Positions 41,504 through 45,640 of a stretch of 64,000 nucleotides of DNA are shown in pieces (position 1 is the stretch's first letter; every line of letters begins with the position of its first letter). Under the pieces are notes generated by a model. It was not told where the DNA came from. It saw only the letters and a list, made by a program, of their open reading frames with translations, and ran no database searches. Location of the stretch: NCBI RefSeq assembly GCF_004366735.1, contig NZ_SOQX01000001.1, forward strand, positions 682,001 through 746,000, given 5' to 3'. This DNA comes from Thiohalophilus thiocyanatoxydans (lineage in GTDB: Bacteria > Pseudomonadota > Gammaproteobacteria > UBA6429 > Thiohalophilaceae). The position numbers were made by a program, and so were the translations under genes.

Positions 41504-42532
41504 ATGCGACAGGCAAAATTTTTGGATCAACGTTTACACCAACTCGAACAGTGGCTGAACACGCTGGGCTATCACGATTATCAGCTTGAACCGGCCTCGG
41601 CCGATGCCAGTTTCCGGCGTTATTTCCGGGTGCGCCATGCCGGCGCCAGTTTTATCGTGATGGACGCGCCGCCGGAACAGGAGGATACCGGACCGTTTAT
41701 CTGGGTGGCGCAGCTGCTGGCCGACGCCGGTCTGCATGTGCCGCAGATTCAGGCGCACGATAGTGAGCAGGGCTTTTTGCAGTTAAGCGATCTGGGCAAC
41801 GAGCTCTATCTCTCGGTGCTGGATGCGCAGCGTGTCGAGCCATTGTACGCCGATGCGCTGGATGCGTTGTTGCGTTTGCAGCAGCATCCCGCGCCCGACT
41901 GGTTGCCCGATTATGATCGGGCGCTGTTGTTACAGGAGATGCAGCTGTTTGCACACTGGTATCTGCAACGCCATCTCGGGCTGGAACTGGCTGCACAACA
42001 GCAGCGCGTTTTACAGGCGAGCTTTGAACACCTGGCCGACGTGGCGCTGGCACAGCCGCGGGTGATCGTGCACCGCGATTACCATTCCCGCAATCTGCTG
42101 CTGAGCGAGCCCAATCCCGGGGTGATCGATTTTCAGGACGCGGTACTCGGTCCGGTGACCTACGATCCGGCCTCCTTGCTGCGCGACTGCTATATCGCCT
42201 GGCCGCGGGCGCAGGTCGAACAGTGGGTGCGCGATTACCATCACCAGGCGCGGCAGGCCGGGATTCTTGGTCAACATATCGATGCCGGGCAGTTTCAGCG
42301 CTGGTTCGATCTGATGGGGGTACAGCGCCATCTCAAGGCGAGCGGCATATTTGCCCGGCTCAACTACCGTGATAACAAGCCGGGTTATCTGGCGGATATT
42401 CCGCGGACCCTGGGATATGTTCTGGAAATCATGGTGGATTACCCTGAACTGGCCGCGTTTGCGCAGTTGTTGCATGACCTGCGGGTACCGCAACGGCTGC
42501 AAGAGATCCAGCCCCGGGAAGTGTCGGCATGA
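41504..42532 (+). CDS. amgK: N-acetylmuramate/N-acetylglucosamine kinase AmgK
   Basis: AmgK phosphorylates MurNAc at C1 in the recycling route that bypasses de novo UDP-MurNAc synthesis and so gives intrinsic fosfomycin tolerance in Pseudomonas. The 342-residue aminoglycoside phosphotransferase-fold protein has [28 protein letters not shown] (catalytic loop) and [20 protein letters not shown] (metal-binding DFQD). ATG 41504 is close to the TATAAT box, so the message may be nearly leaderless; TTG 41522 is an alternative. It overlaps murU by four bases. Confidence 0.92.
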
Positions 42533-43191
42533 AGGCGATGATTCTGGCGGCCGGTCGCGGCGAGCGCATGCGGCCGCTGACCGACCACTGTCCCAAACCG
42601 TTGCTGCAGGTCGGCGGCAAGGCGTTGATCGAATACCATATCGAGGCCCTGGCCGGGGCCGGGATCACCGGGATCGTGATCAACCACGCCTGGCTGGGCG
42701 CGCAGATCGAGACAGCCCTGGGGGACGGCCAGCGCTACGGCGTGCAGCTGGAGTACTCGCCGGAGCCGGCGGCGCTGGAGACCGCCGGCGGGATTGTCCA
42801 GGCGCTGCCGCGGCTGGGGGAGACCTTTGTGGTGGTCAATGCCGATATCTGGTGCGATTACCCCTTCGCCCGGTTGCCCGAAGAACCCGCCGGTCTGGCC
42901 CACCTGGTGATGGTCGACAACCCGGCGCACCACAGGCAGGGGGATTTCGCCCTGCAGGGCGATCGGCTTGGCGAGCAGGGTGAACCGCGCCTGACCTTCA
43001 GCGGCATCGGGGTGTATCGCGCCGAACTGTTCGCCGGCCTGGCGCCGGGGGTGCGGCCGCTGGGCCCGTTGTTGCGTCAGGCCATGCAAGCGGGCAAGGT
43101 AAGTGGCGAACACTATCGGGGACAGTGGTGGGATATCGGCACCCCGCAACGACTGGCGCAGTTGAACGCGCAACTGACGGGCGACGGCTAA
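42529..43191 (+). CDS. murU: N-acetylmuramate alpha-1-phosphate uridylyltransferase MurU
   Basis: MurU makes UDP-MurNAc from MurNAc-1-phosphate, the second step after AmgK. The 220-residue nucleotidyltransferase has the signature [21 protein letters not shown] cut short here as [18 protein letters not shown], then [24 protein letters not shown] and [12 protein letters not shown] with the metal-binding Asp. It overlaps amgK (ATGA) and is followed six bases later by the carboxylate-amine ligase gene. Confidence 0.92.
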
Positions 43192-43197
43192 GCGCGC

Positions 43198-44631
43198 ATG
43201 GGTGAAGAGATACAGAACAGCCAGTTTGATGCGCAGGATTACGCCCGTTTCGAACAGCGGCTGCGGCAGGAGACCGCGTTGCTCAAACGCTGGGTGCAGG
43301 AAGGGCGTCTGGCGGCGACCGACCCGCAGGGGGGATTCGAGCTGGAAGCCTGGTTGATCGACGAGGCGTTCCGGCCGCTGTCGATCAACGACGTCTTTCT
43401 CAAACGACTGGATACGGATCTGGCTTCGCCGGAGCTGGCCAGTTTCAACTTCGAGGTCAACAGCACTCCGCGGCAGCTGCATGGCGCGGTATTCTCCACC
43501 ATGCACCGGGAGTTAACCGAGACCTGGCAGCATTGCCAGCAGACCGCCGCCGCGCTGGATGCCGGAGTCATCATGATCGGCATTCTGCCGACGGTGGAAA
43601 ATGATTCCCTGAATCTGGCCAATATGTCGGGCATGCAGCGCTATCGGGCGCTGAACCGGGAAGTGGTGCGCATGCGACACGGCAAGCCGCTGGTGCTCGA
43701 TATCAATGGTGAAGAGCATCTGCGGGTGACCCATCGTGATGTGATGCTCGAATCGGCCGCCACCTCGTTCCAGATTCACCTGAAGCTGACCCCGCAAAAC
43801 GCCGTTCCCCTGTTCAATGCCAGTATGATCCTCTCCGGACCCATGGTGGCCCTGAGTGCCAACTCGCCGTTTTTGTTCGGCAAGAACCTGTGGGCCGAGA
43901 CCCGTATCCCGGTGTTTGAACAGGCGGTGGCGGTCGGCGGCTATGATGCCGCCCGTTTCGGTCCCATTCGTCGGGTCACCTTCGGTGACGGGTATGTGCG
44001 ACAGTCCCTGCTGGAATGTTTCGAGGACAATCTGGCCCACTATCCGGTCATGCTGCCGGTGGACCTGGGCGAGGATCCCGAACAGCTGGCCCATCTGCGC
44101 ATGCACAACGGCACCATCTGGCGCTGGAACCGTCCCCTGATCGGCTTCGATGCGGACGGGCGGCCGCATATGCGGGTGGAGCATCGGGTGGTGCCCGCCG
44201 GTCCGACGTTAATCGATACCATCGCCAACGCGGCGTTTTATTACGGCGCGGCGACCGCGCTGGCCAACATGCCGATGCCGCCGCGGCGCCGCCTGGCGTT
44301 CGACAAGGCGCGGGACAATTTCTATGCCGCGGCCCGTTTCGGGTTGCACGCCCGGCAACAGTGGTTCGACGGGGCGCAGCTGTCGGTCGGCGACTTGTTA
44401 CAAAAAGTCTTGTTACCCCTGGCCCGAGAGGGGCTGGCGCAACTGGGGGTGGCCGAGGCCGACAGTCAGACGTATCTGGGGATCATCGCCCAACGGGTGG
44501 CCAGCGGTCGCAACGGCGCCCAGTGGCAACGCGATTATGTCAAACAGCACGGCCGGGACATGCACGCGCTGACCGCCGCCTATCTGGAACGTCAACAACA
44601 GGGGGATCCGGTGCATGAATGGCGCATCTGA
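43198..44631 (+). CDS. GCS2-family carboxylate-amine ligase (glutamate-cysteine ligase-like)
   Basis: This 477-residue protein has the glutamine-synthetase-like fold of the GCS2 family. Metal and substrate residues are visible: E48/E50 in GGFELEAWLID, FNFEVNSTPRQL near residue 86, SFQIHLKLT, and the late MRVEHRVVPAGPTLIDTIAN. Such enzymes join a carboxylate to an amine with ATP. It is longer than YbdK-type members (about 370 residues), and true glutathione synthesis is not indicated by its context. It is coupled to murU (6 bp) and to the M14 gene (17-bp overlap). Confidence 0.8.
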   Translation: MGEEIQNSQFDAQDYARFEQRLRQETALLKRWVQEGRLAATDPQGGFELEAWLIDEAFRPLSINDVFLKRLDTDLASPELASFNFEVNSTPRQLHGAVFSTMHRELTETWQHCQQTAAALDAGVIMIGILPTVENDSLNLANMSGMQRYRALNREVVRMRHGKPLVLDINGEEHLRVTHRDVMLESAATSFQIHLKLTPQNAVPLFNASMILSGPMVALSANSPFLFGKNLWAETRIPVFEQAVAVGGYDAARFGPIRRVTFGDGYVRQSLLECFEDNLAHYPVMLPVDLGEDPEQLAHLRMHNGTIWRWNRPLIGFDADGRPHMRVEHRVVPAGPTLIDTIANAAFYYGAATALANMPMPPRRRLAFDKARDNFYAAARFGLHARQQWFDGAQLSVGDLLQKVLLPLAREGLAQLGVAEADSQTYLGIIAQRVASGRNGAQWQRDYVKQHGRDMHALTAAYLERQQQGDPVHEWRI

Positions 44632-45640
44632 CAATGTATTGACAGTGCTGGATCAGCTGCCATCGGGCCTGCTCGATCTGCCCGCCGAGCGCCTGCACGA
44701 GATGTTGCCGGGGCCGACCCTGATCGAACTGCCGGGCAGCGATCCCCAGCCGCTGTTTATTTCGGTATTACTGCATGGCAATGAGACCACCGGCTGGGAT
44801 GCCATGCGCGCGATATTGAAAAAGTATCCCCGGCTGCCGCGCACGCTCTATCTGTTGATCGGCAATGTCAGCGCCGCGGCGCGGCGGCAGCGACATCTGC
44901 CGGATCAGGCGGACTATAACCGGATCTGGAAAGGTGACGGCGACGGTCCCGAGCATGCCATGGCCCGGCAATTGTTACACCGGCTGGAGCAGCGTCCCCT
45001 GTTTGCCGCGATTGATATTCATAACAACACCGGCACCAACCCGCACTATGCCTGTATCAACCGGCTTAACGAAGACTATTTGCATCTGGCCACACTGTTC
45101 AGCCGCACCGTGGTCTATTTTCTTAAACCCGATGGGGTACTCTCCCTGGCTTTGTCACGTCGGTGTCCGGCGGTGACGCTCGAATGCGGCAAGCCCGACG
45201 ATGCACACGGCGTGACCCATGTGATCGAATACGTGGAAGCGGCATTGCATCTGTCGGCGTTCCCCGAACATGAAGTCGCCCCGCAGGATGTGGATCTGTT
45301 TCATACCGTGGCTGTGGTCAAGGTGCCCGAACAACTTTCCATCGGCGTGGACGATCCCCGGGCGGATATCGATCTGAGTTCGGCGATCGATCATTACAAT
45401 TTCAGTGAGTTGCCGGTCGGTACCTGTTTCGGTCATTATCGCCACGGCGGCGATACCGCGCTGGAGGCGCGGGATGAGCTGGGCAACGAGGTCAGTGGCC
45501 GTTATTTTGAACTAAGTGACGGCCGAATCTATACCCGTACGCCGGTCATGCCCTCGATGCTGACCCTGGATACCGGGATTATTCGCCAGGATTGTCTCTG
45601 TTATCTGATGGAACGCCTGCCGTTGCCGACGGGCGAGTGA
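44615..45640 (+). CDS. M14-family / succinylglutamate desuccinylase-like zinc hydrolase
   Basis: This 341-residue protein has the zinc ligands H54 and E57 in LLHGNETTGW and H136 in IDIHNNTGTNP, with a likely catalytic E190 in VTLECGKPDDAHG, matching the AstE/aspartoacylase branch of M14 enzymes. It would remove an acyl or amino-acid group from an amide. No signal peptide, so cytosolic. It overlaps the ligase gene by 17 bp, the strongest coupling in the operon, suggesting that one enzyme undoes or trims the product of the other. Substrate unknown. Confidence 0.8.
   Translation: MNGASDNVLTVLDQLPSGLLDLPAERLHEMLPGPTLIELPGSDPQPLFISVLLHGNETTGWDAMRAILKKYPRLPRTLYLLIGNVSAAARRQRHLPDQADYNRIWKGDGDGPEHAMARQLLHRLEQRPLFAAIDIHNNTGTNPHYACINRLNEDYLHLATLFSRTVVYFLKPDGVLSLALSRRCPAVTLECGKPDDAHGVTHVIEYVEAALHLSAFPEHEVAPQDVDLFHTVAVVKVPEQLSIGVDDPRADIDLSSAIDHYNFSELPVGTCFGHYRHGGDTALEARDELGNEVSGRYFELSDGRIYTRTPVMPSMLTLDTGIIRQDCLCYLMERLPLPTGE

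Follow-up and report, generated by a model that had tools for sequence, protein, structure and literature searches.

The carboxylate-amine ligase and the zinc amidohydrolase encoded next to each other in the 64,000 nucleotides analysed here (the window) form a strongly conserved unit, since at each of the 91 loci whose ligase is not the window's own the hydrolase gene follows the ligase gene on the same strand. Linkage of this pair to cell-wall genes is real but confined to part of the Gammaproteobacteria, and the reading that we prefer, though we would put it slightly below even chances, is that the two enzymes work as a module, one forming and the other hydrolysing a single amide of a small cytosolic metabolite.

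The gene unit and its conservation

The pair closes a run of four plus-strand reading frames, all intact end to end, which opens with amgK (N-acetylmuramate/N-acetylglucosamine kinase, 41504-42532) and murU (MurNAc-alpha-1-phosphate uridylyltransferase, 42529-43191) and continues with the glutamate-cysteine-ligase-like carboxylate-amine ligase (43198-44631, 477 residues) and the zinc amidohydrolase of the AstE/aspartoacylase family (44615-45640, 341 residues). The coordinates confirm the four-gene unit of the original prediction, with a 4-base overlap of amgK and murU, a gap of 6 bases between murU and the ligase and a 17-base overlap of ligase and hydrolase. The identities proposed for the first two genes are likewise upheld, in that MurU passes the curated NF045761 cut-off of 250 with 326.8 bits and AmgK matches PF01636 (E 6.8e-34) as well as NF045759 over residues 9-326 (314 bits, E 8.4e-94), the latter under the 550-bit cut-off, which is exceeded in just one of 349 Pseudomonadota genomes. 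Judged by these profiles both appear to be MurNAc-recycling enzymes of the ordinary kind.

The ligase was found in 18 of the 349 sampled Pseudomonadota genomes and the hydrolase is adjacent in every one; 14 of them also have a hydrolase profile hit at E 1e-20, the adjacent hydrolase of the other four (G070, G138, G174 and G318) is visible in gene maps, and for G053 and G061, also among the 18, adjacency was judged from coordinates only. Co-occurrence, counted from profile hits only and with kinship ignored, gives a Fisher p of 1.3e-20. Across the 91 loci the median gap is 9 bases and the genes overlap or lie at most 50 bases apart in 72, L009 being counted as adjacent though it holds just the last 55 ligase residues; of 579 confirmed relatives found by searching with the hydrolase, the best 80 serve as database loci, and close relatives are over-represented among these. 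Because the order recurs in all 91 of these non-window loci it is not due to chance, and the pair is kept at 21-35% identity. Indeed the two genes co-occur even when apart, as in two Halochromatium genomes where the ligase adjoins murU and the hydrolase is on a separate contig. A hydrolase without a detected ligase was seen in G022, the sole such genome among the 349, and in Sedimenticola selenatireducens DSM 17993, and a single one of 146 cyanobacterial genomes has the ligase, that one being the search centre. A mirror-tree of 36 loci including the window shows no co-evolution signal for the pair beyond shared ancestry, r being 0.75 between ligase and hydrolase and 0.71 and 0.74 for each against murU. 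Parts of L090 and L091 excepted, no gene accompanying the pair in all lineages was seen in the gene maps or in the neighbour clusters of 81 loci, which were judged by eye and many of which are antisense or overlapping artefacts; as regards a defence role, the window ligase and hydrolase have no PADLOC match at E <= 0.01. The joining of a ligase to a hydrolase of opposite chemistry, as originally proposed, thus stands with respect to the joining, whereas the opposite chemistry rests on family grounds.

Families, motifs and folds of the two enzymes

The window ligase scores 34.4 bits against Pfam GCS2 (PF04107, gathering score 21), a family matched at E <= 10 by 42 of 44 aligned ligases, and among ten more diverse ligases eight are over the cut-off, L085 is under it and L088 has no match. 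Of the four alignments, A1 and A2 comprise 44 sequences apiece, one from the window and 43 drawn from candidates that numbered 62 and 66 with the window's locus L001 included; A3 has 24 sequences and A4 has 22. The signature GhExE (G46, E48 and E50, the ATP/Mg site, at 43333-43347 on the plus strand), which excerpts of PMC2588565 give as the ATP/Mg signature of the glutamate-cysteine ligase/GCS2 superfamily, does not vary among the 24 sequences aligned, and the catalytic residues are invariant in an alignment spanning down to 32% identity. The predicted model (pLDDT 92.8) finds its best fold matches in 1tt4 (Z 38.1), 1r8g (YbdK; Z 37.4) and plant GCL 2gwc (Z 32.5), and aligns from residue 1 to 476 with yeast GCL 3ig5, 466 of the 477 residues being superposed (rmsd 2.9, Z 29.4). 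A eukaryotic GCL origin is made tempting by this 466-residue overlap, yet it was rejected since the sequence tests failed: alignment A1 gave no matches at E <= 10 among PDB chains, A3 hit three RNA polymerase chains and, apart from these, only 1r8g (E 0.043) and 1tt4 (E 0.17), hhalign returned one 59-column match to eukaryotic-type GCL at a probability of 2.5% and just 22% for YbdK, and the 25 conserved positions in common with eukaryotic-type GCL fall within the range of eight shuffled controls (13-25). Going by the model, the layout of the ligase may be of the full-length eukaryotic glutamate-cysteine ligase type.

The hydrolase was called M14/AstE-like in the original prediction, and of this name the latter half is borne out by family and fold while M14 carboxypeptidase is the poorer description. 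It scores 34.9 bits against AstE_AspA_cat (PF24827, gathering score 25), which is matched at E <= 0.1 by all 22 aligned hydrolases, the window's included, and its model (pLDDT 92.0) matches AstE (Z 19.9), aspartoacylase (Z 18.8) and Csd4 (Z 15.8 over 181 residues). The HGNE zinc motif with H54 and E57 (44774-44785, plus strand) is invariant in 22 of 22 sequences, as are R93, N102, R103, H136, E190 and a C-terminal DCLxY, and the catalytic residues stay invariant in an alignment spanning down to 21% identity. We take H54, E57 and H136 as zinc ligands, together with R93, N102, R103 and the catalytic E190, to be the AstE/ASPA catalytic set, the H, E, R and N-R positions having been placed by alignment with aspartoacylase and the remaining ones by motif. 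The AstE equivalog TIGR03242 gives 15.7 bits against a cut-off of 305.65, and no arginine-succinyl genes were recognised by eye beside the hydrolase in the window's list of reading frames.

Cell-wall linkage and rival explanations

The proximity to amgK and murU led to the proposal of a place for the pair in MurNAc recycling. This fails as a general rule, the neighbourhood survey finding the pair mostly apart from recycling genes outside part of the Gammaproteobacteria, but a tie to cell-wall genes holds within that part, where murU precedes the pair and some loci have an L,D-transpeptidase gene after it. On such grounds an amide on MurNAc or in a wall peptide undergoing recycling (the gamma-D-glutamyl bond to meso-DAP, for instance) would be opened by the hydrolase and closed by the ligase, which we regard as unlikely. 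In its favour, of the 81 loci that could be assessed, 37 have murU no more than 1500 bases in front of the ligase (the count leaves out 10 loci short of upstream sequence, 5 without a ligase, and L001, the window's own), and murU stays beside the ligase in G350, G351, G358 and G360, where amgK is distant or on another contig. Furthermore, 17 of the 97 loci L001-L097 encode a TPR/Cds6_C protein and 13 an L,D-transpeptidase (YkuD/Cds6_C), a reading frame of one or the other type beginning 8-251 bases past the hydrolase in 16 loci; the wall carboxypeptidase Csd4 is among the fold matches of the hydrolase, and one of the 22 hydrolases matches the murein tripeptide amidase MpaA (E 0.088). However, murU is absent upstream in the other 44 loci, among them 14 of the 15 that form a less biased sample (it is present in one); of 13 pair genomes that fall outside the linked group, 11 have amgK and murU together at another site; a tblastn search of the window gave no match to the L,D-transpeptidase-type gene pair; the MpaA match is no better than chance; and AstE and aspartoacylase outscore Csd4. 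The enrichment of AmgK is likewise weak (18 of 18 ligase genomes against 274 of 331 others, p 0.053 uncorrected) and uninformative, since AmgK is so common. On a quick ligase tree the murU linkage requires at least six changes of state, its deep forks being poorly supported and gain and loss indistinguishable. Since the linkage is clade-limited, MurNAc or a wall peptide ranks second as the general substrate, but the genes that recur beside the pair within the linked group (murU, amgK and an L,D-transpeptidase gene) speak for it there. We take the clustering with murU in this part of the Gammaproteobacteria more as a sign of common expression than of a common substrate.

It is improbable, too, that the pair is a second gamma-glutamylcysteine system, in which the ligase would be a glutamate-cysteine ligase and the hydrolase would recycle gamma-glutamylcysteine or a related thiol peptide. 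The nearest folds, YbdK and the glutamate-cysteine ligases, and the long alignment with the yeast enzyme agree with it, and PF03074 (gathering score 25 bits) is touched by 8 of the 44 aligned ligases, at best with E 0.0013, and by four of the ten more diverse ones at 11.8-16.5 bits. The window ligase, for its part, has no PF03074 match in match lists whose filters drop weak ones, and a search of the 349 genomes at E 0.01 gave 0 matches but is uninformative, as the control was silent too. The NCBIfam GCL cut-offs are furthermore far from reached (24 bits against 409 for NF010043), the scores for TIGR01436 and EgtA being 15.9 and 17.9 bits against 463.15 and 370.8, and because no curated glutamate-cysteine ligase cut-off is reached the donor may be other than glutamate. 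Six ligase genomes (G026, G018, G010, G187, G068 and G327) have no match to PF04262 or PF08886, and G026 and G018 also lack a GSH-S_ATP match, which would suit such a system, but of 16 genomes tested, 9 have a GshA of one of these types, the host's being one of them. Since the host has separate adjacent gshA and gshB genes (a GshA match to PF08886 at 625 bits adjoining a GshB match), the window ligase is, on the sequence evidence, unlikely to be its main glutathione enzyme, and that candidate role was dropped. Less probable still is a protection chemistry in which the ligase would add glutamate to an amine for processing by enzymes encoded elsewhere, after which the hydrolase would strip it off. 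In putrescine breakdown glutamate is added and later removed in this manner by PuuA and PuuD, and the scheme suits a ligase and a hydrolase acting in succession, but no oxidase, aminotransferase or transporter was recognised by eye as recurring beside the pair in the clusters and maps, parts of L090 and L091 again excepted.

Proposed function and comparison with known systems

We return to the two-enzyme amide module, for which the conserved pairing, the predicted folds and the conserved catalytic residues are observed, while the reaction directions, a glutamate donor and one common bond are inferred. The ligase would use ATP to activate a carboxylate by phosphorylation, the gamma-carboxylate of glutamate being the likeliest, and pass the acyl group on to an amine. 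The zinc hydrolase would break that amide, or one closely related to it, and the module would in this way set the level of the conjugate, or store and release an amino compound. Going by the enzyme families, the amide is probably a gamma-glutamyl one. A more far-reaching version, which is possible but which we hold with some doubt, is an undescribed metabolite cycle of gamma-glutamyl type, separate from that of glutathione and retained in scattered pseudomonadotal lineages. In part of the Gammaproteobacteria it would have been drawn into peptidoglycan recycling via murU and an L,D-transpeptidase, perhaps acting on the gamma-glutamyl bond of wall peptides, and its ligase may be of full-length eukaryotic GCL layout.

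The statement that the pair has no assigned function agrees with the literature searched, in the accessible parts of which no published description of it was recognised; a survey of amidoligases by Iyer and colleagues (2009), which was not among that literature, may include this neighbourhood. According to the available text of PMC5005798, the bacterial genes of a chytrid include a carboxylate-amine ligase and a succinylglutamate desuccinylase, a likeness to the pair by name. That two apparently antagonistic enzymes are kept side by side over large divergence suggests that the level of some metabolite is controlled both ways. Naming this metabolite would give two so far uncharacterised enzyme subfamilies a function in one step and put right annotations whose glutathione or arginine-catabolism labels mislead. 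It would also tell whether a cell-wall salvage gene has the substrate of the cycle in common or is only expressed together with a cycle foreign to it.

Among known enzymes, YbdK and the other GCS2 ligases share fold, superfamily and GhExE with the window ligase, as does plant GCL (PF04107), but identity to YbdK and plant GCL in the structure alignments is 16-18%, the window ligase is longer than YbdK, in which its residues before 26 are unaligned, and ligases of the window type are set apart by the adjoining hydrolase. The yeast eukaryotic-type GCL (PF03074) has the longest structural overlap, but its sequence link to the window-type ligase is weak. The hydrolase has its fold and the HGNE, R, N-R and E positions in common with AstE succinylglutamate desuccinylase and aspartoacylase, but differs from AstE in its score far below the equivalog cut-off and the lack of recognised arginine-succinyl neighbours, and from both in the invariant DCLxY, a feature of window-type hydrolases. 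The coupling of a ligase with an activity cleaving the same bond is known from glutathionylspermidine synthetase/amidase and likewise from PafA and Dop of pupylation, whose fold is shared by the window ligase (Z 18.2 and 19.9 with its model); in the present pair, however, no protein-tag gene was recognised and the hydrolase is an unrelated zinc enzyme.

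Conservation of the ligase-hydrolase pair

In the window the MurNAc-recycling genes amgK (41504-42532, matching the NCBIfam model along nearly its full length at a score under the very strict cut-off) and murU (42529-43191, above the NCBIfam cut-off) are followed on the same plus strand by a GCS2-superfamily carboxylate-amine ligase (43198-44631, above the Pfam GCS2 cut-off) and an AstE/aspartoacylase-family hydrolase (44615-45640, above the Pfam AstE_AspA_cat cut-off). These coordinates bear out the overlaps of 4 bases (amgK/murU) and 17 bases (ligase/hydrolase) and the murU-ligase gap of 6 bases stated in the original prediction. 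Neither the window ligase nor the window hydrolase approached the cut-off of any function-specific NCBIfam model.

Among 349 Pseudomonadota genomes, taken evenly out of a larger group, the ligase profile matched 18 and the hydrolase profile 15, with 14 common to both, and one genome (G022) had the hydrolase only. Since the four genomes with a ligase and no hydrolase profile match at E 1e-20 (G070, G138, G174 and G318) carry a diverged hydrolase directly adjoining the ligase, the hydrolase is found next to the ligase in all 18 ligase genomes, two of which (G053 and G061) were assessed by coordinates alone. Loci were added from a collection scan with the hydrolase as query, the best 80 of 579 confirmed relatives being taken, which biases them to near relatives. 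With these included and the window's own locus excluded, the ligase is followed by the hydrolase on the same strand in 91 of 91 ligase-bearing loci, the gap having a median of 9 bases (72 overlapping or at most 50 bases apart, one at 1480 bases), and we can conclude that the pair is the unit.

The ligase is missing from five loci, namely L031, where the contig begins within the hydrolase, two from Halochromatium (L063 and L078), where it is found on a different contig of the same genome, and those of Sedimenticola selenatireducens (L020) and G022 (L089), in whose genomes no ligase was detected at E 1e-15 and E 1e-20, respectively. In L020 murU is directly followed by the hydrolase (7301-9026), a natural hydrolase-only case. 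The ligase of G353 is apparently split, its last 55 residues adjoining the hydrolase (L009) and residues 1-432 adjoining amgK-murU (L102) nearly 290 kb away, as if by a rearrangement or assembly join inside the gene.

Just past the window hydrolase, at 45732-45976, is a GCGGAGGCGCAGAG-rich repeat with 41-base inverted arms, 83% complementary and 163 bases apart. Related copies are found near 11146-11326 and 16163-16179, the 17-base core recurring exactly at 11146, and 8 matches to the core with at most 3 mismatches, against 0.7 expected, suggest a small interspersed element. A glycine riboswitch aptamer (11443-11530, plus strand, 70 bits) is found near a copy of the repeat, and a 6S RNA at 2588-2770 (minus strand, 96 bits).

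Linkage to cell-wall genes

The notion that the pair is tied to MurNAc recycling is supported within one group of carriers and not as a general rule. The neighbourhood survey proposed in the original prediction places murU at most 1500 bases upstream of the ligase in 37 of the 81 loci with enough sequence (window's own not counted), but in just 1 of the 15 among them that come from the 349-genome sample. In linked loci, the window's own included, the median distance is 35 bases; amgK adjoins murU in 20 of the 37, some of the remaining 17 stopping at contig edges. Going by record titles, the linked loci come mostly from Gammaproteobacteria, those of Thiobacillus, Nitrosomonas and the more diverged carriers lacking the linkage. 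In a quickly built tree of 84 ligase rows, with weak deep support, linkage changes state at least 6 times.

Where murU is linked a real cell-wall tie is favoured, since murU remains by the ligase in four genomes with amgK distant or on another contig (G360, G358, G350 and G351), and likewise in both Halochromatium genomes although the hydrolase has moved. The recurring genes downstream of the hydrolase (L004 9120-11434 and up to 16 further loci) also count for this tie: of the 97 loci L001-L097, 17 encode a TPR/Cds6_C protein and 13 of those 17 also an L,D-transpeptidase-type (YkuD/Cds6_C) protein, and an ORF of either type begins 8-251 bases past the hydrolase in 16 loci. In the window no tblastn match to either protein of the relatives was found. 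Outside the linked group amgK and murU are together, away from the pair, in 11 of 13 pair genomes (G102, G070, G138, G010, G320, G318, G342, G336, G187, G026 and G018, the murU match being under cut-off in G010, G187, G026 and G018), while G068 has them on separate contigs and the amgK position of G327 is not among the matches listed. AmgK is furthermore present in 18 of 18 carriers versus 274 of 331 other genomes (p 0.053), which does not set carriers apart.

Fold, chemistry and relation to known enzymes

AstE and aspartoacylase hydrolyse amides in a zinc-dependent manner, and both rank above carboxypeptidases among the structural matches of the hydrolase model (pLDDT 92.0), AstE with Z 19.9 over 283 residues (rmsd 4.0) and aspartoacylase with Z 18.8 over 258-259 residues (rmsd 3.3). 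Among 22 aligned hydrolases, the non-window members being 21-59% identical to the window's, H54, E57, R93, N102, R103, H136 and E190 are invariant, residues which, by aspartoacylase roles, we take to be zinc ligands, substrate-binding residues and the general base. A C-terminal DCLxY motif is likewise invariant.

The ligase model (pLDDT 92.8) matches Salmonella 1tt4 (Z 38.1, 344 residues), E. coli YbdK (Z 37.4, 343 residues), plant glutamate-cysteine ligase (Z 32.5 over 377 residues) and its yeast counterpart (Z 29.4, rmsd 2.9), the yeast alignment covering nearly the whole length (466 of 477 residues). Sequence evidence for the yeast kinship was not above chance in the tests made, except that 8 of the 44 ligases aligned matched PF03074 weakly, and the eukaryotic link is a lead. 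In 24 aligned ligases, window included and the others 32-67% identical to it, the GhExE signature (G46, E48 and E50), described in PMC2588565, is invariant, as are E79, N84, E86, N88, Q192, H194, R236, R326, E328 and R330. An N-terminal MG (window 43198-43203) is present in at least 90% of them, and the yeast enzyme starts with MG too.

Enzymes of this superfamily phosphorylate a carboxylate, usually the glutamate gamma-carboxylate, and then make an amide (PMC2588565). The ligase would thus phosphorylate the carboxylate of a putative donor and form an amide with a putative acceptor, and the hydrolase would cleave that same bond by zinc-dependent hydrolysis. Most simply, the two would form and cleave a single amide bond in a small metabolite, because they adjoin, nearly always co-occur and have opposite family chemistries; pairing, predicted fold and motifs are the direct basis, from which we infer the donor, the acceptor, the sharing of one bond and the purpose. 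Its main rival, that the pair acts on a wall peptide containing a gamma-glutamyl linkage, would be consistent both with this chemistry and with the gammaproteobacterial neighbour genes. Both proteins of the window are probably cytosolic, since no signal peptide is evident by eye at either start.

The ligase is probably not the main glutathione enzyme of the host, since separate matches to GshA (PF08886 type, 625 bits, G000:C1:556154-557365) and, close by on the same strand, to a GshB-type protein (G000:C1 555237-555758) are present. Among 16 genomes tested, including G022 with no detected ligase, GSH-S_ATP matched in 13 and PF04262 or PF08886 in 9 (G000, G102, G282, G320, G318, G342, G336, G138 and G070); in the 7 with no such GshA match a role in glutathione synthesis is conceivable.

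No account of the pair was recognised in the open literature searched, outside of which falls a 2009 survey of amidoligases. The combination and its metabolite appear unassigned, and the ligase and hydrolase are themselves variants of known enzyme kinds.
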